The translations under genes were made by a program, and so were the position numbers. Below are positions 1,137 to 19,439 of a DNA stretch of 64,000 bases, piece by piece. Position 1 is the stretch's first letter; each line of letters opens with the position of its first letter. Location of the stretch: assembly GCA_029194535.1 (NCBI GenBank), contig JARFXR010000001.1, positions 1,558,721 through 1,622,720 on the forward strand. The letters are read 5' to 3'. The notes beneath the pieces were generated by a model. It was not told the origin of the DNA, did no database searches, and was given only the letters and a program-made list of their open reading frames with translations. Source of the stretch: Nitrospira sp. Its GTDB lineage: Bacteria > Nitrospirota > Nitrospiria > Nitrospirales > Nitrospiraceae.

Positions 1137-1245
1137 GATCTGGGTCGTCGAGGACGCCGCGAAAATCGTCACGCTTTCAGTTCCCTCTTCATAGGGAAGG
1201 GTGCTTCAACCGTCGGGCCCTGCGGGGCGAGGGAGGCGCGCTCCA
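1137..1245. repeat. Two-spacer block duplicated within the array (second copy)
   Basis: Second copy of the block at 772-880; spacers 1137-1173 and 1211-1245 are identical to those at 772-808 and 846-880. The neighbouring spacers differ (954 onward versus 1283-1317), so the visible duplication is two spacers long. Confidence 0.95.
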
Positions 1246-1596: not shown

Positions 1597-1623
1597 TGAG
1601 CTAGCCCCACTTTCGTGGACACC
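1597..1623 (+). repeat. Left terminal inverted repeat of the IS3 element
   Basis: It begins TGAGCTAGCCCC and ends GTGGACACC, matching the reverse complement of 2813-2839 at about 22 of 27 positions by eye. TGA...TCA termini are typical of IS3-family elements. Confidence 0.85.
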
Positions 1624-1658
1624 TCAAAAAGGGGACAATAGGTTCCGGGAGGTGTCCG

Positions 1659-1952: not shown

Positions 1953-2809
1953 GATATCGCTTCATTCAGGCGCATCGCACGGAATACCGGCTCACCGGGT
2001 TGTGTCGCACGCTGGGCGTCAGCCGAAGCGGCTACTATGCCTGGCGCCAGCGCCCCGCCAGTGCGCGGGCGACGGCCAACGCGCGTTTGCTCGAGCAGAT
2101 CCAAGAACTCCATCGACAGACGAAGGCGCGCTACGGTGCTGTGAAGGTATGGCGGGCGTTGCGGCTGGCCGGCGTGCGGTGTGGCCGACATCGCGTGGCG
2201 CGCTTGCGGCGGCAACACGGTCTTCTGGCGCAACGCATTCGGCGCTTTCGCATGACGATCGAACGGCATGAGTTTGCCCCGCCCGCGCCGAACCGACTCC
2301 GGCAGGTCTTTGTGGCCCCGGCCAGCAATCGCATTTGGGCGGGCGATCTCACCGCGATCGCGACCCGCGCCGGCTGGCTATATCTCGCCGTGATCTTAGA
2401 TCTGTATTCTCGGCGAGTGATCGGTTGGGCGATGAGTGCCAAGCCCGATCAGCACGTCGCGCTCCAGGCGATGCACATGGCGCTGGCACAGCGGTGTCCG
2501 CCACCCGGGCTCATTCATCACTCCGATCAGGGGGCGCTCTATACCAGTGTGGCCTACCAACGCCTGTTGGCTCAGCGTGGCGTGATCGCCAGCATGAGTC
2601 GCAAGGGCAACTGTTTCGATAACGCAGTGGTCGAAAGCTTCTTCAGCACGCTCAAGAATGAACTGGTGCATGAGCAGCGGTTTCATACCCGTGAAGACGC
2701 GCAAGCGGCCGTGTTTGAATTCATCGAGGTGTTCTACAACCGACGGCGCCTCCATCAGACGCTGGGCTATGTCAGTCCCATGCAGTTTGAGGCGAGGCGT
2801 CTACCTTAA
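1949..2809 (+). CDS. IS3-family transposase OrfB (DDE integrase)
   Basis: This 286-residue protein has the IS3/retroviral-type integrase core. It has an N-terminal HTH_21-like region with YGAVKVWRAL and a GLLAQRIRRFR segment. The catalytic DDE triad is seen in WAGDLTAI (first Asp), HHSDQGALYTS (second Asp) and NAVVESFFSTLKNEL (Glu). The C-terminal YNRRRLHQTLGYVSP motif is typical of the family. It appears full-length and uninterrupted, so the element could still be active. The start overlaps orfA by 4 nt, and expression as an OrfAB fusion through the upstream A7G site is likely. Confidence 0.96.
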   Translation: MRYRFIQAHRTEYRLTGLCRTLGVSRSGYYAWRQRPASARATANARLLEQIQELHRQTKARYGAVKVWRALRLAGVRCGRHRVARLRRQHGLLAQRIRRFRMTIERHEFAPPAPNRLRQVFVAPASNRIWAGDLTAIATRAGWLYLAVILDLYSRRVIGWAMSAKPDQHVALQAMHMALAQRCPPPGLIHHSDQGALYTSVAYQRLLAQRGVIASMSRKGNCFDNAVVESFFSTLKNELVHEQRFHTREDAQAAVFEFIEVFYNRRRLHQTLGYVSPMQFEARRLP

Positions 2810-2812
2810 CTC

Positions 2813-2839
2813 GGTGTCCATGAAATCGGGGTCAGCTCA
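2813..2839 (-). repeat. Right terminal inverted repeat of the IS3 element
   Basis: Its reverse complement starts TGAGCTGACCCC and ends ATGGACACC, pairing with 1597-1623. It is followed directly by the second CCCT target duplication at 2840-2843. Confidence 0.85.
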
Positions 2840-5800
2840 CCCTTGCGTCGTTTGCACTTTCAGTTCCCTCTTCATAGGGAAGGGTGCTTCAACGGTCTGG
2901 CTTTCACGCCGCGCTCGCCGTGCTGAACCTTTCAGTTCCCTCTTCATAGGGAAGGGTGCTTCAACCAGCGTCGCAAACTGGCGCAAGCCGGGAATTTGCG
3001 CTTTCAGTTCCCTCTTCATAGGGAAGGGTGCTTCAACAGCCGTCCTGATTGTTGACGCGGTAGCAGCGTGTAGCTTTCAGTTCCCTCTTCATAGGGAAGG
3101 GTGCTTCAACCACTGCCCGAGCACGCTATACGGTTCCCGCCGTGAGCTTTCAGTTCCCTCTTCATAGGGAAGGGTGCTTCAACTGATTTCAGGCCAGGCG
3201 ACGACATTGAGGGTGACCCCGCTTTCAGTTCCCTCTTCATAGGGAAGGGTGCTTCAACCGATGCGTGAAATGCGGCGGCTTGATGATAGCGGATGCTTTC
3301 AGTTCCCTCTTCATAGGGAAGGGTGCTTCAACGCTAGCCGTGGCATCAGCCTGTGTGTATATATGCGTGCTTTCAGTTCCCTCTTCATAGGGAAGGGTGC
3401 TTCAACAATCTCATCGACCGGCGTATGATAGAGCTTGTAGCCTTTCAGTTCCCTCTTCATAGGGAAGGGTGCTTCAACCGTCCGGTATGCGACGCACTGG
3501 TTGCCGCATGATGCGCTTTCAGTTCCCTCTTCATAGGGAAGGGTGCTTCAACTTCAAGCAAATGGTCGTCTGGGACAAGGGGCCCATTCTTTCAGTTCCC
3601 TCTTCATAGGGAAGGGTGCTTCAACGCAGGAGGGGATTCAGGCGGCGCGGGCGACGTTTCGGCCTTTCAGTTCCCTCTTCATAGGGAAGGGTGCTTCAAC
3701 ATCCAGAGAATCGGCATCACTTCCCCGTCTTGATTAATCTTTCAGTTCCCTCTTCATAGGGAAGGGTGCTTCAACTACACTGCCCGAGCACGCTATACGG
3801 TTCCCGCCGTGACTTTCAGTTCCCTCTTCATAGGGAAGGGTGCTTCAACGCTGCAGCGCCGGACGATGGAATGCTCGAGCACTGTCACTTTCAGTTCCCT
3901 CTTCATAGGGAAGGGTGCTTCAACGGGTTGACCGCTGCCGTCGAGTCCTTCACTTGCTGCACTTTCAGTTCCCTCTTCATAGGGAAGGGTGCTTCAACAT
4001 CGATCGCCGTGGTCAATGGCGTGCCGTCCATTTATCTTTCAGTTCCCTCTTCATAGGGAAGGGTGCTTCAACGTCTCGATCGGCTCGAACACGGGTGTCC
4101 CGCCTCCATCTTTCAGTTCCCTCTTCATAGGGAAGGGTGCTTCAACGAGGGACGATGAAATTTGAACTCACATCACGATGGACCTTTCAGTTCCCTCTTC
4201 ATAGGGAAGGGTGCTTCAACCTTCAGCTCATGCAGCTCTGGCAGGGCGGCGCGATTACGCCTTTCAGTTCCCTCTTCATAGGGAAGGGTGCTTCAACCCT
4301 CCATACCCGGCCAGGCGAGGTCGTCCTTGATCCATTCTTTCAGTTCCCTCTTCATAGGGAAGGGTGCTTCAACCCATTGCCGTGGTCAATGGCGTGCCGT
4401 CCATCTTCTTTCAGTTCCCTCTTCATAGGGAAGGGTGCTTCAACGACGATGCCGCCCGTGTGGGACTTTCAATCCATTCCTTTCAGTTCCCTCTTCATAG
4501 GGAAGGGTGCTTCAACGCAGCGGGCGGGGCGCTGTCCAGCTTTGATCTGTCCTTTCAGTTCCCTCTTCATAGGGAAGGGTGCTTCAACTCTGGGACGGGA
4601 CCAACACGGCAAGTGTGAATGCGTCTTTCAGTTCCCTCTTCATAGGGAAGGGTGCTTCAACTGCCGAAGCTGTCGAGCCTGTCGGGAGGACTCTTCCTTT
4701 CAGTTCCCTCTTCATAGGGAAGGGTGCTTCAACAAACACCAGAGCGGAGGCGGCGTGATCTTTGTCTGTCTTTCAGTTCCCTCTTCATAGGGAAGGGTGC
4801 TTCAACCGCGGACCCTGCTTGACGGCAGCAAGGCGACCAGTCTTTCAGTTCCCTCTTCATAGGGAAGGGTGCTTCAACCACGCAACGTGAAACGATCGTG
4901 ACGCAGCTTTGCACTTTCAGTTCCCTCTTCATAGGGAAGGGTGCTTCAACATTTGACCTCCGCGTCGTGCGCGGATTTTTGATTCGCTTTCAGTTCCCTC
5001 TTCATAGGGAAGGGTGCTTCAACGCATGACCGTGGCTTCTAACGAGCTGACCGTATTCCTTTCAGTTCCCTCTTCATAGGGAAGGGTGCTTCAACAGGAG
5101 AGGCTAAGCGTATGGATCAATACTTGTTCGCTTTCAGTTCCCTCTTCATAGGGAAGGGTGCTTCAACTGGCGCAGCAAATCGCCGGGGCCGGGGTCTATT
5201 GCACTTTCAGTTCCCTCTTCATAGGGAAGGGTGCTTCAACCGTCCGCCGTTTGCCCGTTGATGGTGTGAGACGAAACTTTCAGTTCCCTCTTCATAGGGA
5301 AGGGTGCTTCAACCGGAGTTACGAGGCGGTGCTTGTGGGTCAGAAGCTCTTTCAGTTCCCTCTTCATAGGGAAGGGTGCTTCAACCTCCATGCGGATCTG
5401 GTGTGAACGCCCCGGCGTCCTTTCAGTTCCCTCTTCATAGGGAAGGGTGCTTCAACAGCGACCGGTCCTCTCGCCAACGGAACAATGGTTCTCTTTCAGT
5501 TCCCTCTTCATAGGGAAGGGTGCTTCAACTGCGCGTGGTCCGGCTCGATACGAACGAGATGGTGGCTTTCAGTTCCCTCTTCATAGGGAAGGGTGCTTCA
5601 ACAAAAGGTCCGCGACTCCCGACTGAAAGCCCAACTCCTTTCAGTTCCCTCTTCATAGGGAAGGGTGCTTCAACTGAAATAGCGGAAGATGGTTTCCGCC
5701 AATGAGGCGACTTTCAGTTCCCTCTTCATAGGGAAGGGTGCTTCAACCGGGAACACCTCGCGCGTCCAGGGTCCTGGACTATCTTTCAGTTCCCTCTTCA

Positions 5801-7133
5801 TAGGGAAGGGTGCTTCAACCACGCAACGCGAGACGATCGTGACGCAGTTTTGCACTTTCAGTTCCCTCTTCATAGGGAAGGGTGCTTCAACCAACGGCGA
5901 TGTGACGGAACTCACCGGCGCAACACTCTTTCAGTTCCCTCTTCATAGGGAAGGGTGCTTCAACCGGCGCGCGATCCTGCACGTTCGCCGCTTTCGCCTC
6001 TTTCAGTTCCCTCTTCATAGGGAAGGGTGCTTCAACAGAGGTGCAGCGCATGAAGGCGCAGGCCGCATCGGCTTTCAGTTCCCTCTTCATAGGGAAGGGT
6101 GCTTCAACAATATCATGAATGATTGGGCGACCGTGCCGCACACGCTCTTTCAGTTCCCTCTTCATAGGGAAGGGTGCTTCAACCGTCTTCAATGGCTCGA
6201 ACGAGGACGGCTTCGAGCTTTCAGTTCCCTCTTCATAGGGAAGGGTGCTTCAACGATTGACGATCTCGGCTCGAAAGGTGGTCAGCCACTCTTTCAGTTC
6301 CCTCTTCATAGGGAAGGGTGCTTCAACGGGCGATCGCTTGCTCCTCACTGAGGGCATTGCGACTTTCAGTTCCCTCTTCATAGGGAAGGGTGCTTCAACG
6401 GGACCTGAGCCCAGGACGTGGCATAGCCGTGCAACCTTTCAGTTCCCTCTTCATAGGGAAGGGTGCTTCAACCGTCGCAATCCCCTGACGGCGGTGCCGA
6501 TCACGGGCACTTTCAGTTCCCTCTTCATAGGGAAGGGTGCTTCAACAACACCCCGTCACGCATCAGCCACCCATATTGCCCCGCTTTCAGTTCCCTCTTC
6601 ATAGGGAAGGGTGCTTCAACGGCTATTGGCATTCGTTTGAAAATAGGGACCAATCACTTTCAGTTCCCTCTTCATAGGGAAGGGTGCTTCAACTCGATTT
6701 CGGAGGCGGCATAGAGCGGCTTCGACAACGCTTTCAGTTCCCTCTTCATAGGGAAGGGTGCTTCAACGCAAATCCACCCCGGTCTTAATCATCGAATCCT
6801 CTTCCTTTCAGTTCCCTCTTCATAGGGAAGGGTGCTTCAACAGCTTAGCGGCTCGTGCCTTCCCACCCTTCTTTCCCACTTTCAGTTCCCTCTTCATAGG
6901 GAAGGGTGCTTCAACGACTGAGCATGCCAGCGGCACGTTCCCGCCGTCCTACTTTCAGTTCCCTCTTCATAGGGAAGGGTGCTTCAACGGTTTGCGCGGA
7001 TCGTCTCATCCGTCCGATCGCCGCCTTTCAGTTCCCTCTTCATAGGGAAGGGTGCTTCAACCACCTGCACCACGCGCACACCGATTAGCTTTGTCGCTTT
7101 CAGTTCCCTCTTCATAGGGAAGGGTGCTTCAAC

Positions 7134-7910: not shown

Positions 7911-8169
7911 GTAGGCCTTGCCGGATATCTTTTTCGCAGACCGGCTGAAGAAGGATCTTGCCCGGCCGCTTGCTCAACACGTCACCCAGCCGAAGGAAGA
8001 GTTCTTCCCGTTTGTTACGCGTCAGCGAACCGCAAAACGCGCTGAATTGGATACGCTCGAGGCCATAATCCTTACAGACATCGGCAATCTTTGTGCGAAC
8101 ACCATCGTCCGGAATGTCATACAAGACGTAGGTGGTGACTTCCTCAACAGACACCGATACCGCTACCAC
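7831..8169 (-). CDS. cas2: Cas2 (CRISPR adaptation)
   Basis: This 112-residue protein has the Cas2 ferredoxin-like fold signature: beta-1 with YVLYDIPDDGVRTKIADVC, then GLERIQFSAFCG and the LRLGDVL helix. Cas2 dimers bridge two Cas1 dimers in the spacer integrase. The last roughly 30 residues (acidic, with DNEDADTERDAPQADAP) extend beyond the usual fold and are encoded by the stretch that overlaps cas4. The start overlaps the end of cas1 by 7 nt, so cas1-cas2-cas4 look translationally coupled. Confidence 0.96.
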   Translation of the reverse strand: MVAVSVSVEEVTTYVLYDIPDDGVRTKIADVCKDYGLERIQFSAFCGSLTRNKREELFLRLGDVLSKRPGKILLQPVCEKDIRQGLHVDNEDADTERDAPQADAPGERSEAV

Positions 8170-9380
8170 TTAAAGGTGAACGGGCTATATCTGCCTTCTC
8201 GACGCAAGAACGTACACAGGCTCCGTGCCTGCATCTGGATAATAGATTTGATCTGATATTTCTTGCCCTTCACTGTCTCGGTGGATTCCAGCCGTTCCAG
8301 GATTTTGGCCGCATAGCGCGAGCGGGTCTCTTCGTCCAACATCCCGGCCTTAAGGGTGACGGCCTCGCCGAGATTGATGTGCGCGATCACGGTGCGGTCC
8401 ACGACCGGCTGGCGGAATTCTTCAACGAGATCCAGCACCAACGACGGTTTGCCTGGACGATCGACATGCAGGAAGCCGGCAAACGGCTCAAGGCCTGCAT
8501 TGAGTACAGCGCCCCAGATTTGAGAATAGAGAATCCCGTAGCCGTAGTTCAGCAAGCTGTTCACCACGTCCGTCGCGCCGCGATGCTCGCGTCCCATGAA
8601 CTCAGCGCGCTGGCCGATGATCTCCTTCACACCATCCCAGTAGAGACGTCCTGCTGTTCCCTCGTAGCCCATTAATGAATCTCGCACATCGTCAAGATGC
8701 GCGCCCACGATTCGCTCAATGGCTGGATGAAGGTCCGCGATCTGATCTGCGACTCGGTCCACGTGTTCAAACCGGGGCGGGTCAGCTTGCTTCAAATACT
8801 TGCCGAAATAGCGGAGCAGCCGCTCTTGATTGGTCAACTTTCCGGCCACAATCAGCTTGGCGAATTCTATGCCACGCGTGTCTCCCATCGCGGCCAACTG
8901 CTCCCGTCGCGAGATCACCGTGGCAGTGAGCATAGGGGAGGACAGCATCGCATAGGGCTTGCCTCCGTGCGTGAGGAAGCTCAGCCGAATACCGCGCTGA
9001 CACAGCTCTTCGACGACATCGGACGAAAGCGTCACGCCGCGCGACGCCACGACCACCTCGCTCAACCGGAAGAAGGGGAATTCATAGATGACCGTCTTGT
9101 TCTGACGGACCAGCAACCGCTCGCTCTTTTTCGAGAGAAACATGCCGAAGCCGGAGAGCACCACCTGGGATGTGTCGCCGGTCTTCACCATCCGGATGCC
9201 CTCGTCGATCACGCGTTCCTCACCGTCCGGCGGCTCGGTTTCGATCGGCACGACCACCGCTTCCGGCTCGCCGGTGAAGAGATTGATTTGGGCAGGCGGC
9301 AGTTCGCGAATACGCTGAGGCGCTGAGACTTCGGGATGAATGCGGGTGAGGAGATCGGGTTCTGCAGACTGGGCGCTCAT
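8163..9380 (-). CDS. cas1: Cas1 spacer integrase
   Basis: Cas1 catalyses insertion of new spacers at the leader-proximal repeat. The 405-residue product contains the N-terminal beta-domain (residues about 75-150, SRGVTLSSDVVEELCQRGI) and the alpha-helical catalytic domain with GYEGTAGRLYW (Glu), NYGYGILYSQIWGAVLNAG, PFAGFLH (His) and LVLDLVEEFR (Asp). It is longer than a typical 320-340-residue Cas1, because about 70 residues precede the usual start and contain an INLFTGEPEAVVVP segment. Its function is not obvious. A VapBC-like module lies 60 nt upstream. Confidence 0.97.
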   Translation of the reverse strand: MSAQSAEPDLLTRIHPEVSAPQRIRELPPAQINLFTGEPEAVVVPIETEPPDGEERVIDEGIRMVKTGDTSQVVLSGFGMFLSKKSERLLVRQNKTVIYEFPFFRLSEVVVASRGVTLSSDVVEELCQRGIRLSFLTHGGKPYAMLSSPMLTATVISRREQLAAMGDTRGIEFAKLIVAGKLTNQERLLRYFGKYLKQADPPRFEHVDRVADQIADLHPAIERIVGAHLDDVRDSLMGYEGTAGRLYWDGVKEIIGQRAEFMGREHRGATDVVNSLLNYGYGILYSQIWGAVLNAGLEPFAGFLHVDRPGKPSLVLDLVEEFRQPVVDRTVIAHINLGEAVTLKAGMLDEETRSRYAAKILERLESTETVKGKKYQIKSIIQMQARSLCTFLRREGRYSPFTFKW

Positions 9381-10283: not shown

Positions 10284-11963
10284 TCATCTATTACCTGACT
10301 CCCAGAAGCATCGTCGATGCTCTTTGTCTTTCTTGCCCTCGTATCGTTGATGGTACTCGCGTTTCTCTAGCGGAGCAGCCACTCGCCACTCTGAGTAACC
10401 CATTTCATGCCAGAACGGCAGGTCGGTCAGATCCGCAACAGACTCCAACTGGTAACGATTGGCAATGGGAACCCAGTCGTAGGCAAACCGGGTGCCGTGC
10501 CAATTGAACACAGCTTGCGAGTTCGGCGGACGGAAATGAAAGCGTAACTTTCGGACCTCTGGAGGAACCTGCCAGAAGCGGCGCAGCGCTCGCACCTTGT
10601 CCTCGTCCCAGAGGTAGTAGCTGACGTAGTCTTCAGGCCGAAAAGCTAGCTCACCGAACGTCTTTAGCAGGAGTTCACCGAATTCTCCCTTCGTCAGTGT
10701 AGATTTGTTGTTGAGTAGTGAAAAGAGGAGCCCGGGCTCTCGGCCAGTGATCCAGATATGGGCCTGCGATCTCCCGGCTTCGTCAGAGCGCCCAACTCTA
10801 CCGATACGCTGAATGATGGAAGAAACCTCCCAGTTATTCCCCCAGAACTCGGTGTGGACCTCTCGGAATGGTAGGTCAAGACCAACTTCGGCAGCGGACG
10901 TCGCGACAACTAGCCGTGCTTCGTCGTTGTGTGTCTTCTGGATTCCAGTCCATTCAATCAGTCGTGTCCCCGCTGATCGAAGTGCCTCCGCCGTTTCGTG
11001 GACGGCAATCACCGAATGATAAAAGTAAATCACGCGATGCTGCGGCGACCTGTCGACAATCCGAATATCGTCACGGTGTAGGTACAGCTCAATTGGATGC
11101 GAGGCGATCCTCTCCTCTGCCGGCGATGCTGCCGTGGATCCGCCTGGATCGAAAGTATCTGCGTCGGAGAAATAATCGGATCTGCCAGTCGCTGACAGGC
11201 AGAGCCATCTCACCGTCCCCAGCTTCTCCAGCGCTCCTGACAAGTTCAGATAGGTGTACGGATCGTAGAAATGGTACTCGTCAATTACGACTTGGTGCTC
11301 AGCGAGCTTTAGTTCGAGTTCGTCTCGCCAACGAGTGTTGTAGAAGTTTCCTGTGACGGAGTAACAGCGTTGCGCGACATAGCCCAGGAGGTCTGGCGAG
11401 CAAAGAATGATGTGGTCGCGCTGATTGAGGACGTCCAGGACCGCGAGAAGAAAGGTTCCCTTCCGGCGCCCAAGCTCAACAATGTTCTCCTCTGAGAACA
11501 AGTGCTGCAGACCTTCGCCAGTAAGCACCGTCACGTAGAGGTCTCGCCCGCGAAGATGCTGGGGAAGCTTGAAGACATACGTCGGGGCTCCTCGCCTCAC
11601 CACTTGCTCGAAGCTCGCTGTATCACGAACGAAGCACCGCTGAATGGGATCAATCGCTCCCACCGCGACGCACTTTGCGCCGACCCACTCGACCAAGGCG
11701 CGAACAACGGAACGCTCGAACTGATCGCGCGACAACAGATTCGTTGGGTAAGTCAGGATCGTTCTGACCAGTGTGTCTGGTCGTTCGAACGTGTCTCGAA
11801 GAGCAAAGAGTACGGCGCCGAGAGTCTTGCCACCGGCGGTTGGGACATGTACCTTCAGCTTTTGGAAGCCTGCCTCATGCAGAAGGAAGTGTTGGTGCGC
11901 ATAGATAGGACGCAAGAGCCGTTTGTCACGAAAAACCGGCAGTCGCTCCGCAGCTAGTTCCAC
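10284..11963 (-). CDS. cas3: Cas3 helicase of type I-D (Cas3')
   Basis: This 559-residue protein is a superfamily 2 helicase without a fused HD nuclease, as in type I-D where the HD domain sits on Cas10d. Walker A is HVPTAGGKT (residues about 39-47), motif II is DEYH at 228-231, motif III is LSATG at 256-260, and the C-terminal motif VI is SIIQRIGRVGRSDE. It unwinds target DNA after interference-complex binding. The start overlaps csc1 by 10 nt, so it is translationally coupled to the Cascade genes. Confidence 0.93.
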   Translation of the reverse strand: MELAAERLPVFRDKRLLRPIYAHQHFLLHEAGFQKLKVHVPTAGGKTLGAVLFALRDTFERPDTLVRTILTYPTNLLSRDQFERSVVRALVEWVGAKCVAVGAIDPIQRCFVRDTASFEQVVRRGAPTYVFKLPQHLRGRDLYVTVLTGEGLQHLFSEENIVELGRRKGTFLLAVLDVLNQRDHIILCSPDLLGYVAQRCYSVTGNFYNTRWRDELELKLAEHQVVIDEYHFYDPYTYLNLSGALEKLGTVRWLCLSATGRSDYFSDADTFDPGGSTAASPAEERIASHPIELYLHRDDIRIVDRSPQHRVIYFYHSVIAVHETAEALRSAGTRLIEWTGIQKTHNDEARLVVATSAAEVGLDLPFREVHTEFWGNNWEVSSIIQRIGRVGRSDEAGRSQAHIWITGREPGLLFSLLNNKSTLTKGEFGELLLKTFGELAFRPEDYVSYYLWDEDKVRALRRFWQVPPEVRKLRFHFRPPNSQAVFNWHGTRFAYDWVPIANRYQLESVADLTDLPFWHEMGYSEWRVAAPLEKREYHQRYEGKKDKEHRRCFWESGNR

Positions 11964-12604
11964 TGATGCGCTTCCTCAATGTTCGGAACAACAACTTTCA
12001 TGCGGTCAGCCACCAGGACTTTCGAGAAGATGCCGGAAAGGTAGTAGAGCGGTGATGGTTTCATTGGTACCTTCCGCGCATAGGTCACCGACGATATCTC
12101 CTCGTAGTCGATTGGGTTCACCACGTGACCCGGCCGCACCAGGATCCGGCCATGCGACCGAAACGGAATCTCAGCGGCCTTCCAAGCGACGGATGGATCT
12201 GGCGGCAACAGCGCACAGGGGGTTCGCTTCTTGCCGAAGTGGATGATCTCTGGTGGCTCAAAATCGTCTCGAGACAGGATATAGAACTCGAAGGTAGAGC
12301 CGGGAATGTAGTACTCGATTTCCATCAGTCCCATCTTGCCGGCCCCAGTGTCTTCCGGAACCGGGTTCCGCTTGTAGATGCGTCGCTCGGCAATCAGCGG
12401 AATCGCAGGGGTGCAATAGAACCTCATGCCGCGCAAATCACAAATGTGATCGGGCTCGACCCTCGGCGTCGGTCTGATATCATTCACCGCGAACATCAAC
12501 GCCCAGTTGTGAAGGACGTCCGAGACGCGGGTAACCTTTAGATACTCGGAGGCATAGAAATGAAGATATCCCTTCGCCTCCAGTTTCGCGCGGAAAAGCC
12601 TCAT
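11954..12604 (-). CDS. csc1: Csc1 (Cas5d-type subunit of I-D Cascade)
   Basis: Csc1 is the Cas5-family RAMP that caps the 5' handle of crRNA in type I-D. The 216-residue product begins MRLFRAKLEAKGYLHFYAS and contains SDVLHNWALMFAVND, the region typical of Csc1, then a beta-rich body. Position supports the call: it lies between csc2 (4-nt overlap) and cas3 (10-nt overlap). The sequence alone is divergent, so the family assignment leans partly on context. Confidence 0.88.
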   Translation of the reverse strand: MRLFRAKLEAKGYLHFYASEYLKVTRVSDVLHNWALMFAVNDIRPTPRVEPDHICDLRGMRFYCTPAIPLIAERRIYKRNPVPEDTGAGKMGLMEIEYYIPGSTFEFYILSRDDFEPPEIIHFGKKRTPCALLPPDPSVAWKAAEIPFRSHGRILVRPGHVVNPIDYEEISSVTYARKVPMKPSPLYYLSGIFSKVLVADRMKVVVPNIEEAHQWN

Positions 12605-13734
12605 GCGGCCGCCTCTTCGTCCTCTTCCTGTTCTCCACCGACCACAGACTCAATTAACCGGGCCATCCCATACTCCGTACTCAGGAACCTTGCAATTTTG
12701 TCATCAGGCGGCTCTTCCTTTTTCGGCCCGTCCAGGGCTTTTAGGAGAGTATTTGCCGCATTCTTCAGATCTTGTGATGTTTTCACTTCCTCACAGATTT
12801 GTGTGCGTCTTGTCGCTACGTCCCACTTCTTCCACTCCAGGTCCTTGTTGCTAGCATCTTTGATTTTCTTCTTCAGAAGCTCGGGTGCTAACCGTCTCGA
12901 CACCTCCTCGAAATAGTCTGGGATGGAGAGATCGACCAGGTTCCTACGTCTAGCAAGTTCGCTTACCTCTGCCGATTGAGCGAGTTTGCGAATCAACTCA
13001 TCTACCTCGGTGTCGGTGCAGGTGATGGTGGTCAAGGTTAGACCATTTTCCCTGATGTGATCTTGAATCTTGTCTTTAGATTTGAGACGGGCTAAGTCAA
13101 TCGCCGCGATGCGCAGGCGTGTATCTTCGACTACTCCCAAAATCGAATTGTGCACCTCGCCATAGATCCTCGTGTTTGCACCGTACCGGTCGCTATGCTC
13201 GATCCCCCAAATCAGAAGCTTCACCCATTTGTCGTCGTTCGCCTCTACCGTCACGACATCGATAAAGTCACGCGGTTCGATGATCTGATTAGTAAAGAGC
13301 GATGTGCCCGTCTGACCGGTTCGTTCATCCACGGCGTTGGATGTGACGTCTCGAATGCCGCCGCCCACGAACGGAAAGGCTGCGGTGTAAAAAGCTCGAC
13401 GCATTTCGATGGCGTTCTTCTGGCCGCTACCGCCACCTTTCTTTGGGGCATAGGTTCCACCAAACAAGGCGCATGCCGGACAAGACATACACAGGCCAGA
13501 GATTCCTGCATCTCCGCCCTTTTTCGCCGTGGTTAGCCAGCAGCGGACACTCAGGACCTCTCGCACCTTGCGCATGATCGTTCGGCGTTCGACTGCCTTA
13601 AGTTTCTCGCCGAAGATGATTGGCCGCTCGTCATCATCCCCAAACTCATACGTGTTCGTCTCGTCACGCGACTCCGTCACGAATTGCCCAAACCCTTTCA
13701 GGCTTCTGAGAACAACCACCTGATACTTTTTCAT
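12601..13734 (-). CDS. csc2: Csc2 (Cas7 backbone subunit of I-D Cascade)
   Basis: Csc2 is the Cas7-family RAMP that polymerises along the crRNA spacer. The 377-residue product shows RTIMRKVREVLSVRCWLTT, a Zn-binding-like segment ISGLCMSCPACALFGG (three Cys), and SDRYGANTRIYGEVHNSILGV, all consistent with Csc2. The C-terminal tail is acidic (GGEQEEDEEAAA). It overlaps cas10d upstream and csc1 downstream by 4 nt each, indicating one co-translated effector block. Confidence 0.94.
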   Translation of the reverse strand: MKKYQVVVLRSLKGFGQFVTESRDETNTYEFGDDDERPIIFGEKLKAVERRTIMRKVREVLSVRCWLTTAKKGGDAGISGLCMSCPACALFGGTYAPKKGGGSGQKNAIEMRRAFYTAAFPFVGGGIRDVTSNAVDERTGQTGTSLFTNQIIEPRDFIDVVTVEANDDKWVKLLIWGIEHSDRYGANTRIYGEVHNSILGVVEDTRLRIAAIDLARLKSKDKIQDHIRENGLTLTTITCTDTEVDELIRKLAQSAEVSELARRRNLVDLSIPDYFEEVSRRLAPELLKKKIKDASNKDLEWKKWDVATRRTQICEEVKTSQDLKNAANTLLKALDGPKKEEPPDDKIARFLSTEYGMARLIESVVGGEQEEDEEAAA

Positions 13735-14165
13735 TGTCCCCCTCCTTGCTGACTAGCGTCCGCACGTATGGTCTGGGCCACTTCTGCATTCGGTGTTTGC
13801 GGGTTGGTCTCTGGCTTGCTGAAATAGGCAAGTGTATAGATCATTGCGCGGACAACCTCTGTGCGGCGGTATGTCTGGTCTTTGTACCGCAGCAGTTTTT
13901 CCGCTGCCTTCTTCAACGCCGCCTCCTCTTTTGGCTGGTTCTCACGCGACCGCCATTTGCCATCTCGTGTCGAGATGGCAAGATGCAGTCCTTTTGCCAC
14001 CATTGCATCAACGAGGCTTGCATCGTCCTCTTTACCCTTCAGTCGCCGCAGGGTTTCGTTCATTCCACGGATGACCTTGCCCGCACCATCTTCGCGATCT
14101 CTCCCGCTTATCCAGATGTCGGCCAGGAACGTAAGCCCCGTCTTTTCCGCAATTTCTTGTACCAT
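13731..14165 (-). CDS. cas11d: Probable Cas11d small subunit, internal translation product of cas10d
   Basis: Inside cas10d an in-frame ATG at 14163-14165 is preceded by GGAGG with an 8-nt spacer (the minus strand reads CGGAGGTTGAGCGA then ATG). This would give a 144-residue protein starting MVQEIAEKTGLTFLADIW and sharing the cas10d stop. Published work on type I-D systems shows that the small subunit Cas11d is made by independent translation from within cas10d. The size and the helical, charged composition here fit that role. Expression is an inference from the ribosome-binding site and the family precedent. Confidence 0.72.
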   Translation of the reverse strand: MVQEIAEKTGLTFLADIWISGRDREDGAGKVIRGMNETLRRLKGKEDDASLVDAMVAKGLHLAISTRDGKWRSRENQPKEEAALKKAAEKLLRYKDQTYRRTEVVRAMIYTLAYFSKPETNPQTPNAEVAQTIRADASQQGGGQ

Positions 14166-16187
14166 TCGCTCAACCTCCGGTTTTGATTCCCGCGTAACGC
14201 GAATTGAACCGTCCGCAAGGAGAGTTCCGAACGCGTAAGGGCTCTGCTGCAGGACTCTGATCGTGCTCGTGTATGGCCGCTTGGAGCTTAGGAGCCGCAA
14301 TGCTCGCCTGAGAATAGGCCATGCTTCAGTGCCAACGCTGATGCTTCCACACGTGAGGAGACTTCGAGAGTTGGTGGGTGTCGTGACTATCACTGCACCC
14401 TTGAGCCCGTAGCGATAGAGCCGATCCAGAATCTGCTCTTCCCCCCGGTTGGGATCAGCCGTCAGCTCTTGCAGCAGCGTTTCCCGGTCGCGTCCTTTTA
14501 AGGAGAGCACGGCTATGTGAGGGTACACTCCACTTCCCAATATCGTGCCCGGCGCACCAAGTTCGACGAGAGGACTTCCTGAATCAGGTTGAAGAATTTC
14601 CCCCCAGTCAAGTCGTGCGAAAAGGTGATGCGGCATTACGCACACGTGATACAGGTGGCGCTTGCCTTCGGCGTCCACTGAAATGAGATCCCACCATTTC
14701 GCACACCAATCGCAGAAGGATACACCGCGCCTTGCCATACCCTCCTTTTTGATCAAGCGCATATGGGTCGTGTAAAAGACCTCCACGGTTCCTCCCAGCG
14801 GTGAGTTCTGCGGGAACGCCGCTGCGGTCACGTTTCCCTGTGCAAACTGATGGCACGCGGGGCACACGTCCAGCGGTTCCTTCCTCTTGTATCGCTCGTA
14901 ATCAGCAAGCGCGTCCGCCTTAGGGTCTAACGGGGACTGCAGTGGGTATGTGGCGGTGTCGGGTACGAGAAGAGTCCGCACATCATACCGAAGCGATCGG
15001 GCGTCAGCGCCGGGATTATCCGATCGGGACGCCCCTAACATTTTTTGCACGGAGGACTGTAAAGCCTGGAGGATCTCATCCAATGTCCGTTCATAGGTGG
15101 CTGGTGGCTTCAAGAACCCAAAGACCTTCAGGGACTCCACTGTAACCCTGCCATGGCGTCCACCTGCCATAAGGCAAGCCCGGTGCCGTTCCTTCTCAGG
15201 GATGTTACACAAGTCCAGGATGGTGTTGTACGTGATTCCACAGACACGGCCATAGAGGTACACCTCCTCCCGTTCGTCAGACCACTGTGCAGGATTCTTC
15301 TCGGCCACCTTGCGCTTGCGAGCACAGTAACTGTTGGCAATGGAAGTGGCCTGTTCGACGAACTTGGCTGGATCCGATGCCAGCTTCAGAAAGCTGCACT
15401 CATCTGTGTAGATTCGTGCGTTGCCGTCATCGTATCGAAGGACCCCTTTACTGCCGCCGAGCTGCTCATTAAGAAATGCGTTCGCCTCATCGAGCGACGG
15501 CAATGTGGCATCGACCTCTGCGAGGTATAGAGTTGAGGTTGCCGAGTAGAGCAGCGGCCAGATCCTTCCGGTTTCTGCGAAGATGTAGTCGAAGGCTCCG
15601 ATGGCGAGCGCCGACATCGGATGATCGATGAGTTCAACGGTGAACAGGCGGTAGCGAACTGTATCGATGATTGCGTTGAGGGTTCGGATTAGGCCTTCGG
15701 AAATCCGCGTCTGTGAGATCGCACGATCACATTCGCTGACCACATCCTTCATCCGGTTTCGTGCTGGAGTTGAAGCGGCCCGACCGGAACCGTGGTGGTG
15801 TTCAATAATGAAGAGAATGTCGTCAATATCAGCGGAGGTGAGAAGATCCCGCGAGTACCTCTGGATTCCGCTGCCAACAATGGCGTTCAGTTCCCCATAC
15901 TTCACATCCTCAAGCGTCACCTTGTGTGGCCCTCGCAGAGACTTCTGCCAGTTTGCAGAAGTCTTCCCGTAGTCATGAAGAAGCGCTGCCCAGCGCATCA
16001 GTTCCTTGTCCGACTCAGAGTACACCTGCATAAACGGCAGCACACCATCGACGAGCGCGTACGCGCTGAAGCTGTGGATGAAAAGACTCTCGTTCCAGGA
16101 CTTCGCATGGTACAGGTGGAAGCCACATTCGCGCAGAACTTGAAGGGCACGTTGCCGCGTCAGGCCTGTGTGGTTCCCGTGCGTCAT
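13731..16187 (-). CDS. cas10d: Cas10d (Csc3) large subunit with HD nuclease domain
   Basis: Cas10d is the large subunit of type I-D Cascade and carries the HD nuclease that other type I systems place on Cas3. The N-terminal HD domain is visible: FIHSF (His38), LLHDYGK (His71, Asp72) and IIEHHHG. A Zn-binding pair follows in the middle, VCPACHQF and FCDWCAKWW. The C-terminal quarter is helical and contains the Cas11d internal start. I chose ATG 16187 (818 residues), preceded by GGGG; a longer frame to 16256 adds 23 residues that overlap the cas6-tail remnant. That remnant's stop codon lies one base before this ATG (TAGCATG). Confidence 0.93.
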   Translation of the reverse strand: MTHGNHTGLTRQRALQVLRECGFHLYHAKSWNESLFIHSFSAYALVDGVLPFMQVYSESDKELMRWAALLHDYGKTSANWQKSLRGPHKVTLEDVKYGELNAIVGSGIQRYSRDLLTSADIDDILFIIEHHHGSGRAASTPARNRMKDVVSECDRAISQTRISEGLIRTLNAIIDTVRYRLFTVELIDHPMSALAIGAFDYIFAETGRIWPLLYSATSTLYLAEVDATLPSLDEANAFLNEQLGGSKGVLRYDDGNARIYTDECSFLKLASDPAKFVEQATSIANSYCARKRKVAEKNPAQWSDEREEVYLYGRVCGITYNTILDLCNIPEKERHRACLMAGGRHGRVTVESLKVFGFLKPPATYERTLDEILQALQSSVQKMLGASRSDNPGADARSLRYDVRTLLVPDTATYPLQSPLDPKADALADYERYKRKEPLDVCPACHQFAQGNVTAAAFPQNSPLGGTVEVFYTTHMRLIKKEGMARRGVSFCDWCAKWWDLISVDAEGKRHLYHVCVMPHHLFARLDWGEILQPDSGSPLVELGAPGTILGSGVYPHIAVLSLKGRDRETLLQELTADPNRGEEQILDRLYRYGLKGAVIVTTPTNSRSLLTCGSISVGTEAWPILRRALRLLSSKRPYTSTIRVLQQSPYAFGTLLADGSIRVTRESKPEVERMVQEIAEKTGLTFLADIWISGRDREDGAGKVIRGMNETLRRLKGKEDDASLVDAMVAKGLHLAISTRDGKWRSRENQPKEEAALKKAAEKLLRYKDQTYRRTEVVRAMIYTLAYFSKPETNPQTPNAEVAQTIRADASQQGGGQ

Positions 16188-16188
16188 G

Positions 16189-16500
16189 CTAACCCCAGCT
16201 ACTCGAACAGGCTCTACTCGTAGTCCCACTCTTTGGTGGGCTTGCTTTCCGGACACGTATCTGCATCCACACTGCGGTCCTTTCCATAACTCCTGATCGG
16301 TCCATTAACCGTACAACCTCATACTGCCCGTTTCCCCACACGGCATACTTCCCCACATGCGTGTACTGCCCCAGGATCAGGAGCGGCAGAAATTCTTCGA
16401 GGTCCCCTTGATACGTCGCCTCGCCGATGAAGCCGCCCATCTCGTGGGCAAGGCTGGTTTTCCATGACCGGGCCTTCGCTAGACTCCCTTCGCCCAGCAC
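16189..16500 (-). pseudogene. cas6 3'-end remnant A, directly upstream of cas10d
   Basis: The segment 16316-16471 matches the 3' end of the intact cas6 (18448-18603) without gaps, with about 10 differences in 156 bp by eye. It encodes MGGFIGEATYQGDLEEFL and HVGKYAVWGNGQYE in frame. The reading frame is open and continues about 30 codons past the point where the intact cas6 stops, ending in TAG one base before the cas10d ATG. It is probably what remains of the ancestral cas6 terminus after toxin-antitoxin genes were inserted upstream. It might be translated and so couple translation into cas10d; this is not shown. Confidence 0.85.
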
Positions 16501-16509
16501 TTATGCCGG

Positions 16510-16905
16510 TCATGGTTCACTGTCCACACTCTGCTCAAGTCGGCGACTGACCGCTTCCACGAATTCATGGGCTGCCGCGATCCCGGCCTGCGCTTGTTCG
16601 TCTGTGATCACCGCCAGGCCGTAGTCGCTTTCGGCCCTGTCTTCAAAGCCATCTCGGAGCAGAGCAAAGAGCTTCGCGGGAACCTCTCCGCTTTTGACGA
16701 AGTGCTCGTTGAATGCCGCAATGACGGCGGAGTGTTTAGAGCGACGAATATCGCGCGACAACAGGAGGGCCTGTGCGGTGTAGAACATGGCGTAGTAGGC
16801 CCGAGAGACCGAAAAGTCACTGTCGCCATCACGAAACAGCCGTTGTGCCGCAAGGAGACTCCGCCGGGCTTTGTCTATGAGTTCGTGGATTTCCTTCCTG
16901 CTCAA
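16510..16905 (-). CDS. HEPN-domain toxin of an MNT-HEPN pair
   Basis: The 131-residue helical protein resembles small HEPN proteins (IHELIDKARRSLLAAQRL, SVSRAYYAMFYTAQALLLS, HSAVIAAFNEHFVKSG). HEPN proteins of this kind act as RNases or ATP-dependent toxins and are neutralised by a minimal nucleotidyltransferase, in some cases by AMPylation. A conserved RAYYAMFY segment and RRSKH lie where catalytic Arg/His residues are usually found, but I cannot assign a definite R-x4-6-H motif. It overlaps the MNT gene by 4 nt and follows it in the same operon. The pair sits between cas10d and cas6, bounded on both sides by partial cas6 tails. Confidence 0.85.
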   Translation of the reverse strand: MSRKEIHELIDKARRSLLAAQRLFRDGDSDFSVSRAYYAMFYTAQALLLSRDIRRSKHSAVIAAFNEHFVKSGEVPAKLFALLRDGFEDRAESDYGLAVITDEQAQAGIAAAHEFVEAVSRRLEQSVDSEP

Positions 16906-17243
16906 AGCGGGACTCCCTCTTCACGGATATTCTGAAAAACAGAGAAGTCACCGCGTTCCTTGCGCATATGCTGGTCCACAATCAGGAGGGAGAGAACAAT
17001 TTCAGTCTCGATCGAGACTTCTCCGGCAGCCCGGCGGATTCGCTGCTTTTCCGCAAACGAGATATGTTCTTGCTCAATCTCTAGGAGGACGTCCATATCC
17101 GAGTCCGGCTCGGCGTCTCCCCTGGCCCGCGACCCGAAGAGGGTCATCTGAAATGCCCGGTCGGGGAACTCCCGACGGATTCGCACTCGGAGGCCTTCAA
17201 GAACGGCGCGCTCTGCTTGCGACAGCTCCTCAACCGTTTTCAT
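16902..17243 (-). CDS. MNT-type nucleotidyltransferase antitoxin
   Basis: This 113-residue protein is a minimal nucleotidyltransferase. It shows the core signature MTLFGSRARGDAEPDSDMDVLLEIE (GSRARG followed by D-x-D at about residues 38-54) and a further acidic strand VSIETEIVLSLL. MNT proteins pair with HEPN toxins and can detoxify them by adenylylation. It precedes the HEPN gene with a 4-nt overlap, the expected order. Its upstream side is a diverged cas6 tail (remnant B). Confidence 0.88.
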   Translation of the reverse strand: MKTVEELSQAERAVLEGLRVRIRREFPDRAFQMTLFGSRARGDAEPDSDMDVLLEIEQEHISFAEKQRIRRAAGEVSIETEIVLSLLIVDQHMRKERGDFSVFQNIREEGVPL

Positions 17244-17302
17244 GTTTGGCTTTTATCCCTGTACTAATTTGAGTATCGTGGTCGCCATTATAAGACACAA
17301 TC

Positions 17303-17465
17303 TTATCCTGTCCATTCCCCCACACCGCGTACTTGCCCACATGCGTGTACTGCCCAGGATCAAAAGCGGCACAAATTCTTCGATTTCTCCTTCGTACGTC
17401 GCCTCGCCGATGAAGCCGCCCATGTCGTGAGGGAGGCCGGTTTTCCAGGAGCGGCGGTCGCAGTT
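17303..17465 (-). pseudogene. cas6 3'-end remnant B, diverged and frameshifted
   Basis: A second partial copy of the cas6 3' end lies between the MNT gene and the AbiEii-like gene. It encodes MGGFIGEATYEGEIEEFVPL in one frame and GQYTHVGKYAVWGNGQ in the next, because one C is missing in the run near 17350 (GTACTGCCCAGG here, GTACTGCCCCAGG in copies A and C). It is clearly less similar to the intact cas6 than copy A is, with both silent and conservative changes, so it is either older or came from a different cas6 lineage. Confidence 0.83.
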
Positions 17466-17507
17466 TCATGGCAATCAGATGATGGCAGCTCCTCCTCGGG
17501 GAGATCC

Positions 17508-18128
17508 TCATGGCTCCTCCAATGACCGCGCGATCAGATCTCTCGCCAGCGACTTGTAGAAGGATGCCATTGCCGCCGGTTCAGCGGGCTTGAGCATCGG
17601 CAACTCTCCTTGCGGAGGAAGAGCTTCGAGGAATCTTCCTTTGAGGATATGGTCGATGCCTTTCACGCCGAATTTCGCTTGAGTCTGCTGGATCGCCTCC
17701 CACAGGCGAAGTGCCGGAAACTCGAGAAGCAGGAAATACACATCGAGATAATCCTTGAAATCTTTTCGATCCGTGAGCGCCATGAGTTTGTTGACCAGGA
17801 TGTCTCGACAACTGTCTACCTGGACGTCTTCAACGACCATATGCCGCTCAAGCGGGAGAAATGGATACTTTGTGAATTCCACTTTCATGGTCCGCCGATC
17901 GTGATAGTGAAGCAGAAACAACCGGCGATCGTATTTGCGCTCATGCTGGATGTTGACCACGTGTGGAATCGTTCGGAGGAAACCGAGGACAGACTCAAGC
18001 TCGACCTCCTGCTCGGTAAAGAAGTCGAGGTCTTCAGAATATCGATGCCGAAGGTAGAATGCTGAGAGGGCCGTTCCACCGGTCAGGTAAAAGTGCTCCC
18101 GAAGCGGTGAGGTTCGGAAGCGTGACAA
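17508..18128 (-). CDS. AbiEii/AbiGii-type nucleotidyltransferase toxin
   Basis: The protein has the AbiEii signature FYLTGGTALSAFYLRHRYSED followed by DLDFF, which carries the nucleotide-binding GG-T/S and D-x-D residues. Further family features are KVEFTKYPFL and ILVNKLMALTDRKDFKDYLDVYFLL. AbiEii toxins are GTP-binding nucleotidyltransferases that act in phage defence and as type IV toxins. The start shown is a TTG. The frame is open upstream to about 18181 (ADNPILTEPQKILLSRFRTS), so the true N-terminus may lie some 17 codons earlier, with a non-ATG start overlapping the partner gene's stop. It lacks a normal wHTH-type AbiEi partner. Confidence 0.85.
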   Translation of the reverse strand: MSRFRTSPLREHFYLTGGTALSAFYLRHRYSEDLDFFTEQEVELESVLGFLRTIPHVVNIQHERKYDRRLFLLHYHDRRTMKVEFTKYPFLPLERHMVVEDVQVDSCRDILVNKLMALTDRKDFKDYLDVYFLLLEFPALRLWEAIQQTQAKFGVKGIDHILKGRFLEALPPQGELPMLKPAEPAAMASFYKSLARDLIARSLEEP

Positions 18129-18175
18129 GAGAATCTTTTGCGGTTCCGTCAGAATCGGGTTGTCAGCGATCGAGT

Positions 18176-18391
18176 TCAGAGCCGGCTCCCCCAGATGCGG
18201 TGATACTCTTCAATGAGCGCTTTGGTAGCTTCGTCCACCCTCAGTTGATTGCGGTAGGCATAGAGCAAAGCCACCGTGTCGCGGTCTTTCCCGTAGAGCG
18301 GGAAGAAGTCCGCGATCCGCTGTAAGCGCCACACGAGATCTTGGGGAGGGTCGCGATAATCCCACAGCAGCTCTTTGGGGACAGCAATCAT
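18176..18391 (-). CDS. Small protein partner of the AbiEii-like toxin
   Basis: This 71-residue protein (MIAVPKELLWDYRDPPQDLVWRL start) has no domain I recognise. It is predicted mainly helical with many charged residues. It lies immediately upstream of the AbiEii-like gene with no gap, so it is the likely cognate antitoxin or partner. It is much shorter than AbiEi antitoxins, which are about 200 residues with a winged-helix domain. The first gene after cas6 in the operon, it begins 44 nt beyond the cas6 stop. Confidence 0.65.
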   Translation of the reverse strand: MIAVPKELLWDYRDPPQDLVWRLQRIADFFPLYGKDRDTVALLYAYRNQLRVDEATKALIEEYHRIWGSRL

Positions 18392-18434
18392 TTCGTTTCG
18401 GTCTTTCGATCATCTGGGGTTCAACGCGCGACCA

Positions 18435-19439
18435 TTATATAACGCTCACCTCATATTGCCCATTCCCCCACACCGCATACTTCCCCACATGCGTGTACTG
18501 CCCCAGGATCAAGAGCGGCAGAAATTCTTCGAGGTCCCCTTGATACGTCGCCTCACCGATGAAGCCGCCCATGTCGTGGGTGAGGCTGGTTTTCCGTGAC
18601 CGGCGATCGCGGTCTTCCCATCTGATGTTGCAGTGCACTGTTCGGACCGCTTCTGCTCGTTGTCCGAACGCTTTGAAATCCATCGCCAGTGTGTCGTCGC
18701 AGTAGAAATGGGCGACGGCGTTGATCCGGTCGCGCAGGCGCTTGATGAGATGGTGGAAGTCGGGGCGTGTGACGATCTTGCCGTCGGCTTTAAGGAGAGT
18801 TGGGGTGAGAAAGCGGATTGTCACGCGCTGGGCCTGTGTGAGAAATCGCTCTGTCGCGAGACGGCAACAGTCCTTATAGGTAATCCTGAGGGGCGACGGG
18901 TGAACGACGTTGTCGCGGCCCGAATAGATCTCTGCGACTTCGTTCCCATCTTCGCTGAGCAGAGACACCTGAACAATCCTGTAGCGCCCTCGGCCAAGTC
19001 CGATGCCTTGGGTTCCCAACTCTCGGAACGTGACCAAAAAATATGAGAAGTGCTCGAGGGCTTTGCCGATCAGGATGAGATCGAAGTGGAGAGCCTCGCC
19101 GGGCCGGGCCATCGTCTCGATGCCGTTCGGTGGACGGAACACGAAAGGGCGGGGAATGTCTTGATTCAAGCTCAGCCGGTCGCTGTCCGGCGGAGGGCTC
19201 GGCTCAAAGATCTGTCCGTACGGACAGGTGGCTTTCATCCGGCAGGTCTCGCGGCAGTCTGCCGGCGTGGGACAGACCAGTCTCTGGAATGTGGACCCGA
19301 AGGCGCCACGCAGCGTGTTGCCGGGATTGCGAGGGTGGAGTGCCAGTCGGTCCTCGGCCTCCAGCGCGAACCGGAATTGTGCAAGGGAGAAGGAGTGCAG
19401 CATGCTGCTCGTCGGAAGAACACTTACTGACTTGGACAT
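18435..19439 (-). CDS. cas6: Cas6 crRNA endoribonuclease (intact copy)
   Basis: Cas6 cuts the repeat hairpin to release crRNAs with an 8-nt 5' handle. The 334-residue product shows the features of the COG5551-like Cas6 group: RNPGNTLRGAFG near residue 40, a cysteine-rich segment (CPTPADCRETCRMKATCPYG), YFLVTFRELG, and the glycine-rich C-terminal end MGGFIGEATYQGDLEEFLPL with HVGKYAVWGNGQYE. It is the only intact copy; partial 3' copies lie at 16316-16471 and 17303-17465. Starts at 19439 or 19403 (MLHSFSLAQ) are both possible. It is the first cas gene in transcription order, unlike the usual I-D layout where it follows csc1. Confidence 0.9.
   Translation of the reverse strand: MSKSVSVLPTSSMLHSFSLAQFRFALEAEDRLALHPRNPGNTLRGAFGSTFQRLVCPTPADCRETCRMKATCPYGQIFEPSPPPDSDRLSLNQDIPRPFVFRPPNGIETMARPGEALHFDLILIGKALEHFSYFLVTFRELGTQGIGLGRGRYRIVQVSLLSEDGNEVAEIYSGRDNVVHPSPLRITYKDCCRLATERFLTQAQRVTIRFLTPTLLKADGKIVTRPDFHHLIKRLRDRINAVAHFYCDDTLAMDFKAFGQRAEAVRTVHCNIRWEDRDRRSRKTSLTHDMGGFIGEATYQGDLEEFLPLLILGQYTHVGKYAVWGNGQYEVSVI
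18448..18603 (-). repeat. cas6 3'-end direct repeat, copy C (within intact cas6)
   Basis: Reference copy for the direct repeats at 16316-16471 (A, same length and about 94 percent identical by eye) and 17303-17465 (B, more diverged). All three copies have the same orientation. The repeats separate two toxin-antitoxin modules, so the locus reads cas6 body, tail C, TA, tail B, TA, tail A, cas10d. Confidence 0.9.

Follow-up and report, generated by a model that had tools for sequence, protein, structure and literature searches.

A 64,000-nt stretch of a Nitrospira sp. genome (assembly GCA_029194535.1, contig JARFXR010000001.1, positions 1,558,721 to 1,622,720; hereafter the window) encodes a type I-D CRISPR/Cas (clustered regularly interspaced short palindromic repeats/CRISPR-associated) operon in which two toxin-antitoxin-like cassettes lie between cas6 and cas10d, each followed by a copy of the cas6 3′ end. 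We refer to these copies as tails A and B and to the corresponding stretch within the intact cas6 as C. On the minus strand, the operon reads cas6, p71, AbiEii, tail B, MNT, HEPN, tail A, a dead stub of another cas10d, the current cas10d, csc2, csc1 and cas3, with cas1 and the CRISPR array further on. The tails are probably footprints left by recurrent recombination events that used the cas6 3′ end as anchor. Behind this reading stand the tails themselves, their recurrence in related loci, a cassette-level block of identity with steps at the tail positions, and the replacement of an effector behind tail A.

Copies of the cas6 3′ end follow both toxin cassettes

A repeat search of positions 15500–19800 detected a single long direct-repeat family, comprising A and C (94% identity) and the region of B (63% without gaps). 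A and C differ at exactly 10 of 156 positions (93.6% identity), matching the approximately ten differences over 156 ungapped bp that had been counted by eye in an earlier reading made from the letters of the window (the sequence-only reading). With a 1-nt gap allowed, B aligns to C at 17309–17464 with 87.3% identity over 157 columns (86.5% in the comparison of the tails); its stronger divergence and 1-base deletion were thus noted correctly, and only its borders were placed slightly off, at 17303–17465. Tail DNA occurs at three places only in the whole 3.98-Mb genome, namely cas6 (E 8.5e-104), A (3.7e-63) and B (5.2e-49), which excludes a chance repeat and bears out the observation that one copy of the cas6 3′ end stands after each toxin module.

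Cassettes and tails recur behind related cas6 genes

Relatives of the window cas6 were searched in 61 genomes (6 matched), 175 genomes of the family (12) and 395 genomes of the phylum (88), together with a scan of genome contigs (3 loci); most relatives are draft assemblies. Genomes and loci are cited below by G and L handles. The nearest cas6 proteins are those of G151 (81% identity), G139 (80%), G007 (80–81% in two blocks), G017 (77%) and L026 (75%; the contig is filed under Gaiellales and possibly misbinned), followed by G454 (62%), G385 (59%) and L027 (51%). The G385 contig stops behind cas6 and was left out of the count, and no tail was found in L027 within the 2955 bp examined.

In the five cassette-bearing Nitrospiraceae genomes of this cas6 clade (window included), eight out of eight cassettes are followed by a cas6 tail, either intact or decayed, and all eight are toxin-antitoxin-like by family match (p71-AbiEii, MNT-HEPN, ParE-type and HEPN-MNT). 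As in the window, where p71-AbiEii and MNT-HEPN are each followed by a tail, G017 has two cassettes: p71-AbiEii with a 37-bp tail remnant, then an antisense ParE-type toxin and small partner with a 52-bp remnant, followed by type I-B effectors. In G007, an antisense ParE-type pair precedes a 172-bp cas6 piece (89% identity), and HEPN-MNT precedes a 46-bp remnant, transposase-like genes (by eye) and a cas3 that is 64% identical to that of G139. One MNT-HEPN cassette is present in G139, followed by a decayed tail, cas3 (best NCBIfam match type I-G, below the cut-off) and a DevR-type cas7, and one in G151, followed by a tail remnant and Cst2-type I-B effectors. L026 and G454 have neither cassette nor tail, and their effectors begin 16 nt and 393 nt behind cas6, respectively; the G454 effector is of the same type as that of G151 (cas8 60%, cas7 76%). 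Loci with zero, one and two cassettes therefore exist, as a comparison of relatives proposed in the sequence-only reading had set out to find.

Each joint in the window has a counterpart directly behind the intact cas6 of a relative. The joint between C and p71 matches the one behind the intact cas6 of G017, and the joint between tail B and MNT matches the cas6-MNT joint of G139 and G151, with unbroken homology of ∼79% from tail B through HEPN (window 17464–16504). Likewise, tail A and the next ∼105 nt align with the cas6-cas10d joint of L026.

The eight cassettes do not stand for eight independent events, as the joint between HEPN and tail looks common to the window, G139 and G151 (by eye). 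Moreover, an interruption at the identical base after GACATGGCGG is seen in both tails of G007 and in those of G139 and G151, four decayed tails in all; several tails thus bear a common mark of decay and are therefore related by descent. The interrupting sequence is the same repeat-rich element in all four (L022 9408 and 10877, L025 11843, L036 10708), and by eye the cas6 genes of G007 and G017 seem to contain similar repeats.

Within this cas6 clade, we encountered neither of the two patterns named beforehand as incompatible with a cassette model, i.e., whole cas6 paralogues decaying in place of tails, and toxin-antitoxin-containing loci devoid of tails. The second cas6 genes of G007 and G017 were considered as candidate paralogues and rejected, being 33–34% relatives without tails. 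G017 also carries a cas6 5′ fragment (amino acids 13–89, 86% DNA identity to the intact copy) 10 kb upstream of its intact cas6 (L020 18904–18674 and 8894–18614). Between the two lie a CARF-like gene and a Cmr-like type III-B operon (both by eye) as well as a TIGR02710 CARF gene, and the arrangement looks like a mirror image, with an upstream module and a cas6 5′ remnant.

A toxin cassette shared between species with different effectors

Comparison of G139 and G151 provides strong evidence, at the level of nucleotide divergence, that the MNT-HEPN cassette was exchanged as a unit between species. Their cas6 genes differ at 125 of 969 sites (87% identity), compared to 19 of 776 in the MNT-HEPN block (97.6%; Fisher P = 7.5e-17). 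The same holds at four-fold degenerate sites, with 38/149 differences in cas6 vs 3/56 in MNT (P = 0.0008); HEPN was left out of this count because it is frameshifted in G139. Identity steps occur just after the cas6 stop codon and at the start of the tail behind HEPN. Beyond this tail, no DNA match is seen until position 17437 in L036, the effectors differ in type, and among the effector proteins compared the sole match is cas3 (28%). The tail behind HEPN itself gave 19/128 differences or 9 substitutions, depending on the alignment ends, and neither value was used as evidence.

A weaker hint of cassette exchange comes from the window and G017, where p71-AbiEii is 84.2% identical, compared to 75.2% for the 5′ part of cas6. 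Between the window and G151 or G139, cassette and cas6 are about equally diverged (80–81% and 79–80%).

A dead cas10d stub behind tail A

Directly behind tail A, we found a feature that had been overlooked in the sequence-only reading, a decayed 5′ stub of a cas10d unlike the current one. Its local alignment to the first codons of the L026 cas10d scores 63.5, compared to a maximum of 48.5 in 2000 shuffles, and the current cas10d starts immediately behind it. The presence of a dead stub of another cas10d after the tail indicates that an earlier I-D effector was replaced at this place. Among 15 comparison loci, the current cas10d has a single weak match, to the L026 cas10d (30% over 64 amino acids), and its donor was not found in the other 394 phylum genomes, which gave weak matches only (best E 1.7e-10, 27%). 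Comparable cas10 5′ stubs of the first 23–26 codons precede another effector gene in L123 (1879–1947) and L135 (1724–1792), where the genes inserted ahead of them are helix-bundle-like and DUF559-like (as judged by eye).

The assignment of the operon to type I-D is based on Csc2 (TIGR03157, above the cut-off), an HD domain in the large protein and a separate cas3 helicase. PADLOC models for Cas5d, Cas7d and Cas3d matched; Csc1 and Cas3d are significant yet below the NCBIfam cut-offs, and no Cas10d model matched the large subunit.

Order of events within the window

Tail B adjoins the outermost and presumably newest cassette, yet it is less cas6-like than A (86.5% vs 93.6%). In addition, A and C have common states at cas6 nt 817 and 862 that are absent from B and from all five outgroups. 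Serial copying in place would not predict this; C and A rather seem to derive from one allele, and B from a second allele within the same lineage. The tree of the tails that had been suggested in the sequence-only reading groups the three window tails into one clade, with moderate support (73 and 80; the tails are short). A simple order of events would be that a locus consisting of cas6, AbiEii, a tail and cas10d took up the MNT-HEPN cassette through crossovers in the tails.

Gene-end copies elsewhere in the phylum

Elsewhere in the phylum, 58 more cas6 loci were inspected, 52 of which have at least 1 kb downstream; two additional loci, G385 C267 and G227 C3, were dropped, as the contigs end behind cas6. 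In two of the 58, an inserted gene is followed by a convincing cas6 tail. In L111 the tail follows an antisense ParE and Phd/YefM pair, and in L116 it lies between a 23S_rRNA_IVP helix-bundle gene and cas10. Matches of 20–29 bp in L112, L114, L117, L123 and L135 were dismissed as simple repeats or chance; nearly all of the 24 hits of a minus-strand control are such repeats.

Relatives of the MNT-HEPN pair also occur elsewhere in the family without cas6 tails, and among four such loci (L145–L148) only L146 has a gene-end copy. L145 contains no gene-end copy or repeat, and L147 only CRISPR repeats and its two similar MNT-HEPN pairs. These two further pairs of G139 surround a cas1-containing gene and repeat array, so that the MNT-HEPN toxin family recurs in CRISPR loci. 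In L148 (reverse complement, 1330–1429 and 2227–2332), two nucleotidyltransferase/HEPN-like cassettes of G151 follow one another next to a second cas1-like gene, each with a direct repeat of ∼100 bp in front of it.

In G108, an MNT-HEPN-type pair in the order HEPN-MNT is located between an intact glyoxalase-like gene and a 231-bp copy of its 3′ end (81% identity), with 24 synonymous and 11 non-synonymous codon differences (one of them a stop) among 70 codons. Past type I restriction genes, another 48 bp of the same 3′ end follow, and in G143, whose orthologue matches PF13669, 61 bp of this 3′ end close an island of ∼13 kb. The glyoxalase-like gene is found in 70 of 77 genomes of the genus; in G140 its 3′ end is divergent, but other genes follow and no cassette was seen. 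The copies in G108 and G143 indicate that the footprint is not peculiar to cas6.

Probable recombination anchored at the gene end and alternative explanations

In the reading that we prefer, incoming DNA from a related locus with cas6 and something behind it would pair with the resident cas6 or an existing tail, and a crossover there would place the new module behind an intact cas6. To close the other end, either a further crossover could take place in a tail, or the DNA could be joined illegitimately within the resident cas6 end; the resident 3′ end would then be left as a tail before whatever stood there earlier. Tails might then serve as new homology anchors at which cassettes would be gained or swapped, and effector operons replaced behind them with upstream cassettes kept. 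Such a combination of homologous and illegitimate recombination, anchored in a gene end, can explain why an intact gene stands before the insert and a leftover of its end behind it, why the joints resemble those of donors and identity changes in sharp steps, and why an integrase is lacking. Tails, joints and identity steps together display what characterizes a displacement array, namely a homologous anchor on one side, a foreign module without homology, and a remnant of the old 3′ end downstream.

Several observations weigh against this interpretation. Inserted genes without a cas6 tail also exist (L123, L135). The tails of G017, G151 and G139 and the second one of G007 are pieces of only ∼35–60 bp; that of G139 is the weakest, detected with its own cas6 (E 1.4e-4 and 3.8e-4) and by alignment with G151, not with the window cas6. 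As the window tails form one clade, the AbiEii donor would have to be sought in a close relative outside the collection and not in G017. Tails A and B, the G151 tail and the second tail of G007 have their left ends within 27 nt of one another (cas6 nt 810–837), which favors a preferred site. Finally, the codon-position signal, i.e., the absence of second-position differences among 10 and 21 tail differences, is only suggestive; it loses strength when half of the change is attributed to the intact cas6, which is under constraint, and we do not build on it.

Elements that integrate at gene 3′ ends, typically those of tRNA genes, leave an intact gene, the insert and a copy of the gene's 3′ end. 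By analogy, each module could be an element ending in the cas6 3′ end, which an integrase supplied in trans inserts at a fixed point of cas6, thereby restoring the gene. Besides the clustered left ends, the layout of intact gene and 3′ end copy on the far side agrees with such an element, as do the ∼13-kb islands behind the glyoxalase-like gene in G108 and G143, whose far ends carry 48–61 bp of its 3′ end. Nevertheless, we regard site-specific integration as improbable. On the contig, more than 500 kb separate the window from the nearest tyrosine integrase (PF00589; serine and other recombinase families were not searched), in agreement with the earlier remark that no integrase is visible. The inserts are small toxin modules of differing families and in both orientations, the first tail of G007 begins at cas6 nt 700, i.e., ∼110–140 nt further upstream, and the clustering of the ends partly reflects common descent. 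The search for tail copies in other genomes recovered tails in five genomes of the cas6 clade; away from these cas loci, the 175 family genomes contained only four marginal matches of 27–37 bp, in a search that scored at most four candidates per genome, missed strongly decayed tails and did not report those of G139, G151 and the second one of G007. A scan of viral contigs for a mobile form gave no relative of this cas6. The proposed analogy to tRNA genes therefore finds no support in the distance to the integrase, the dearth of tail DNA elsewhere and the common descent of tails. What stands of the cas6 terminus as a landing site for toxin modules is that insertion is recurrent, that tails accompany the cassettes and that a cassette has moved between species as a unit.

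Alternatively, the local cas6 end could have been copied when a toxin gene inserted, by a long target duplication or a template switch, and the copies would now be decaying. Although each window tail is most closely related to the local cas6, and many tails are indeed decaying, this explanation is also unlikely: B, by position the youngest tail, should be nearest to C, but A is nearer and has common changes with C; the G108 tail diverged mainly by synonymous changes; and a 97.6% identical cassette behind 87% identical cas6 genes is left unexplained. Very unlikely, in our view, is retention of the tails as RNA or translation signals for the next gene. The frame of tail A, open in the cas6 reading frame, stops 1 nt before the cas10d start codon (window 16187–16191), compatible with translational coupling, and tails end near gene starts in the window, G139 and G017 (by eye), but repeat elements or frame breaks disrupt most of the other tails, and B has lost one nucleotide.

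Under the preferred model of recombination at the cas6 end, persistence of the modules may be due to addictive toxins: addiction would make the cassettes hard to lose and might lock them into the CRISPR operon, as was proposed from the sequence alone, yet the HEPN gene of G139 is already broken.

Gene content of the window

Coordinates of all features are given in Table 1. In the candidate AbiE (type IV) toxin-antitoxin pair, AbiEii matches Pfam and PADLOC; p71, which lies upstream in the place of an AbiEi antitoxin, matched no Pfam, PADLOC or NCBIfam model. The MNT-HEPN pair, a candidate type VII toxin-antitoxin, is present; its MNT scores 28 bits with NCBIfam MntA, compared to a cut-off of 60, and matches PADLOC PDC-S09.

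Table 1. Features of the window and glyoxalase-like gene-end copies in G108 and G143.
Feature	Position	Strand	Evidence and remarks
CRISPR array region	218..7122	+	78 repeats, one gap of ~1.3 kb
cas1	8163..9380	-	TIGR00287 E 3.1e-72; 87% identical in L026; common to relatives with other effectors
cas3d helicase	10284..11963	-	PADLOC Cas3d E 6.6e-15
cas5d/csc1	11954..12604	-	PADLOC Cas5d E 2.3e-06
cas7d/csc2	12601..13734	-	TIGR03157 E 6.4e-16
Current cas10d, 818 aa from ATG at 16187, HD domain	13731..16187	-	Pfam/PADLOC scans
Decayed 5′ stub of L026-type cas10d, frame breaks and TAG codons	16203..16307	-	local alignment; abuts tail A
Tail A, cas6 3′ end copy, open in cas6 frame	16316..16471	-	93.6% identical to C
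HEPN protein, 131 aa	16510..16905	-	PF05168 E 1.1e-17
MNT nucleotidyltransferase, 113 aa	16902..17243	-	PF01909 (NTP_transf_2) E 3e-08; PADLOC PDC-S09 E 1.3e-18
Tail B, cas6 3′ end copy, 1-nt deletion	17309..17464	-	~87% identity with C; immediately precedes MNT
AbiEii-like nucleotidyltransferase toxin, 206 aa	17508..18128	-	PF08843 E 4.5e-22; 83% identical in G017
p71, 71-aa partner of AbiEii	18176..18391	-	85.5% identical at same place in G017
Tail C, repeated stretch within intact cas6	18448..18603	-	ends 10 nt before stop codon
cas6, intact, 334 aa	18435..19439	-	PF10040 E 9.1e-20; PADLOC Cas6 E 2.7e-91
Glyoxalase-like 3′ end copies, G108/G143	L171 2511-4463 and 16133-16180; L170 2735-2795		near nuo-like genes (by eye)

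Implications and comparison with known systems

The preserved joints, i.e., cas6 tails, cas10 stubs and a cassette bounded by sharp identity steps, allow exchange to be dated, counted and tested. The loci suggest how toxin-antitoxin genes come to lie inside CRISPR operons, and that a similar footprint marks gene islands elsewhere in Nitrospira. A more far-reaching idea, which we put forward tentatively and consider possible rather than likely, is a mobile cassette system without integrase: any gene 3′ end that has once been copied, such as that of cas6 or the glyoxalase-like gene, could become a portable homology anchor; species would accumulate addictive cassettes and CRISPR effector modules at such anchors and exchange them with one another, and loss of the acquired array would be penalized by the toxins.

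An addiction module between cas6 and effector genes is also found in haloarchaea, where the toxin-antitoxin CreTA is located between cas6 and cas8 (PMC9458426, PMC8501985). According to the parts of these reports consulted, CreTA consists of RNAs under the control of Cascade via repeat-like sequences, in contrast to the protein-coding modules described here. The first 26 nt of the CRISPR repeat had no match with up to 3 mismatches in the operon or elsewhere outside the array, a search that can miss strongly degenerate repeats.

Effector-immunity arrays of the Vibrio cholerae type VI secretion system resemble the present loci in their conserved upstream anchor, the 3′ end of the old gene shifted downstream and their stepwise growth, and sequential displacement by homology-facilitated illegitimate recombination has been proposed for them (PMC5361080). 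In the sections of that study available to us, the displaced genes are immunity genes and the ends of secreted-toxin effectors, in contrast to toxin-antitoxin modules and CRISPR effectors behind cas6.

A close parallel within CRISPR/Cas biology is in situ effector replacement (PMC5704561), for which cas6 has been listed among the “attractor” genes (PMC6452270). As in these accounts, cas1 and cas6 are kept and effector subtypes swapped behind them in the window, G139, G151, G017 and L026. The portions of the published account that we consulted name no cas6 3′-end remnants, no toxin cassettes between cas6 and effector and no recombination mechanism, and a literature search limited to open-licence PMC papers, most of them judged by title and the opening of the abstract, retrieved no description of cas6 3′-end remnants beside toxin modules. 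Relative to effector swapping as described there, what is new in these Nitrospiraceae loci are the preserved joints and the toxin cassettes.

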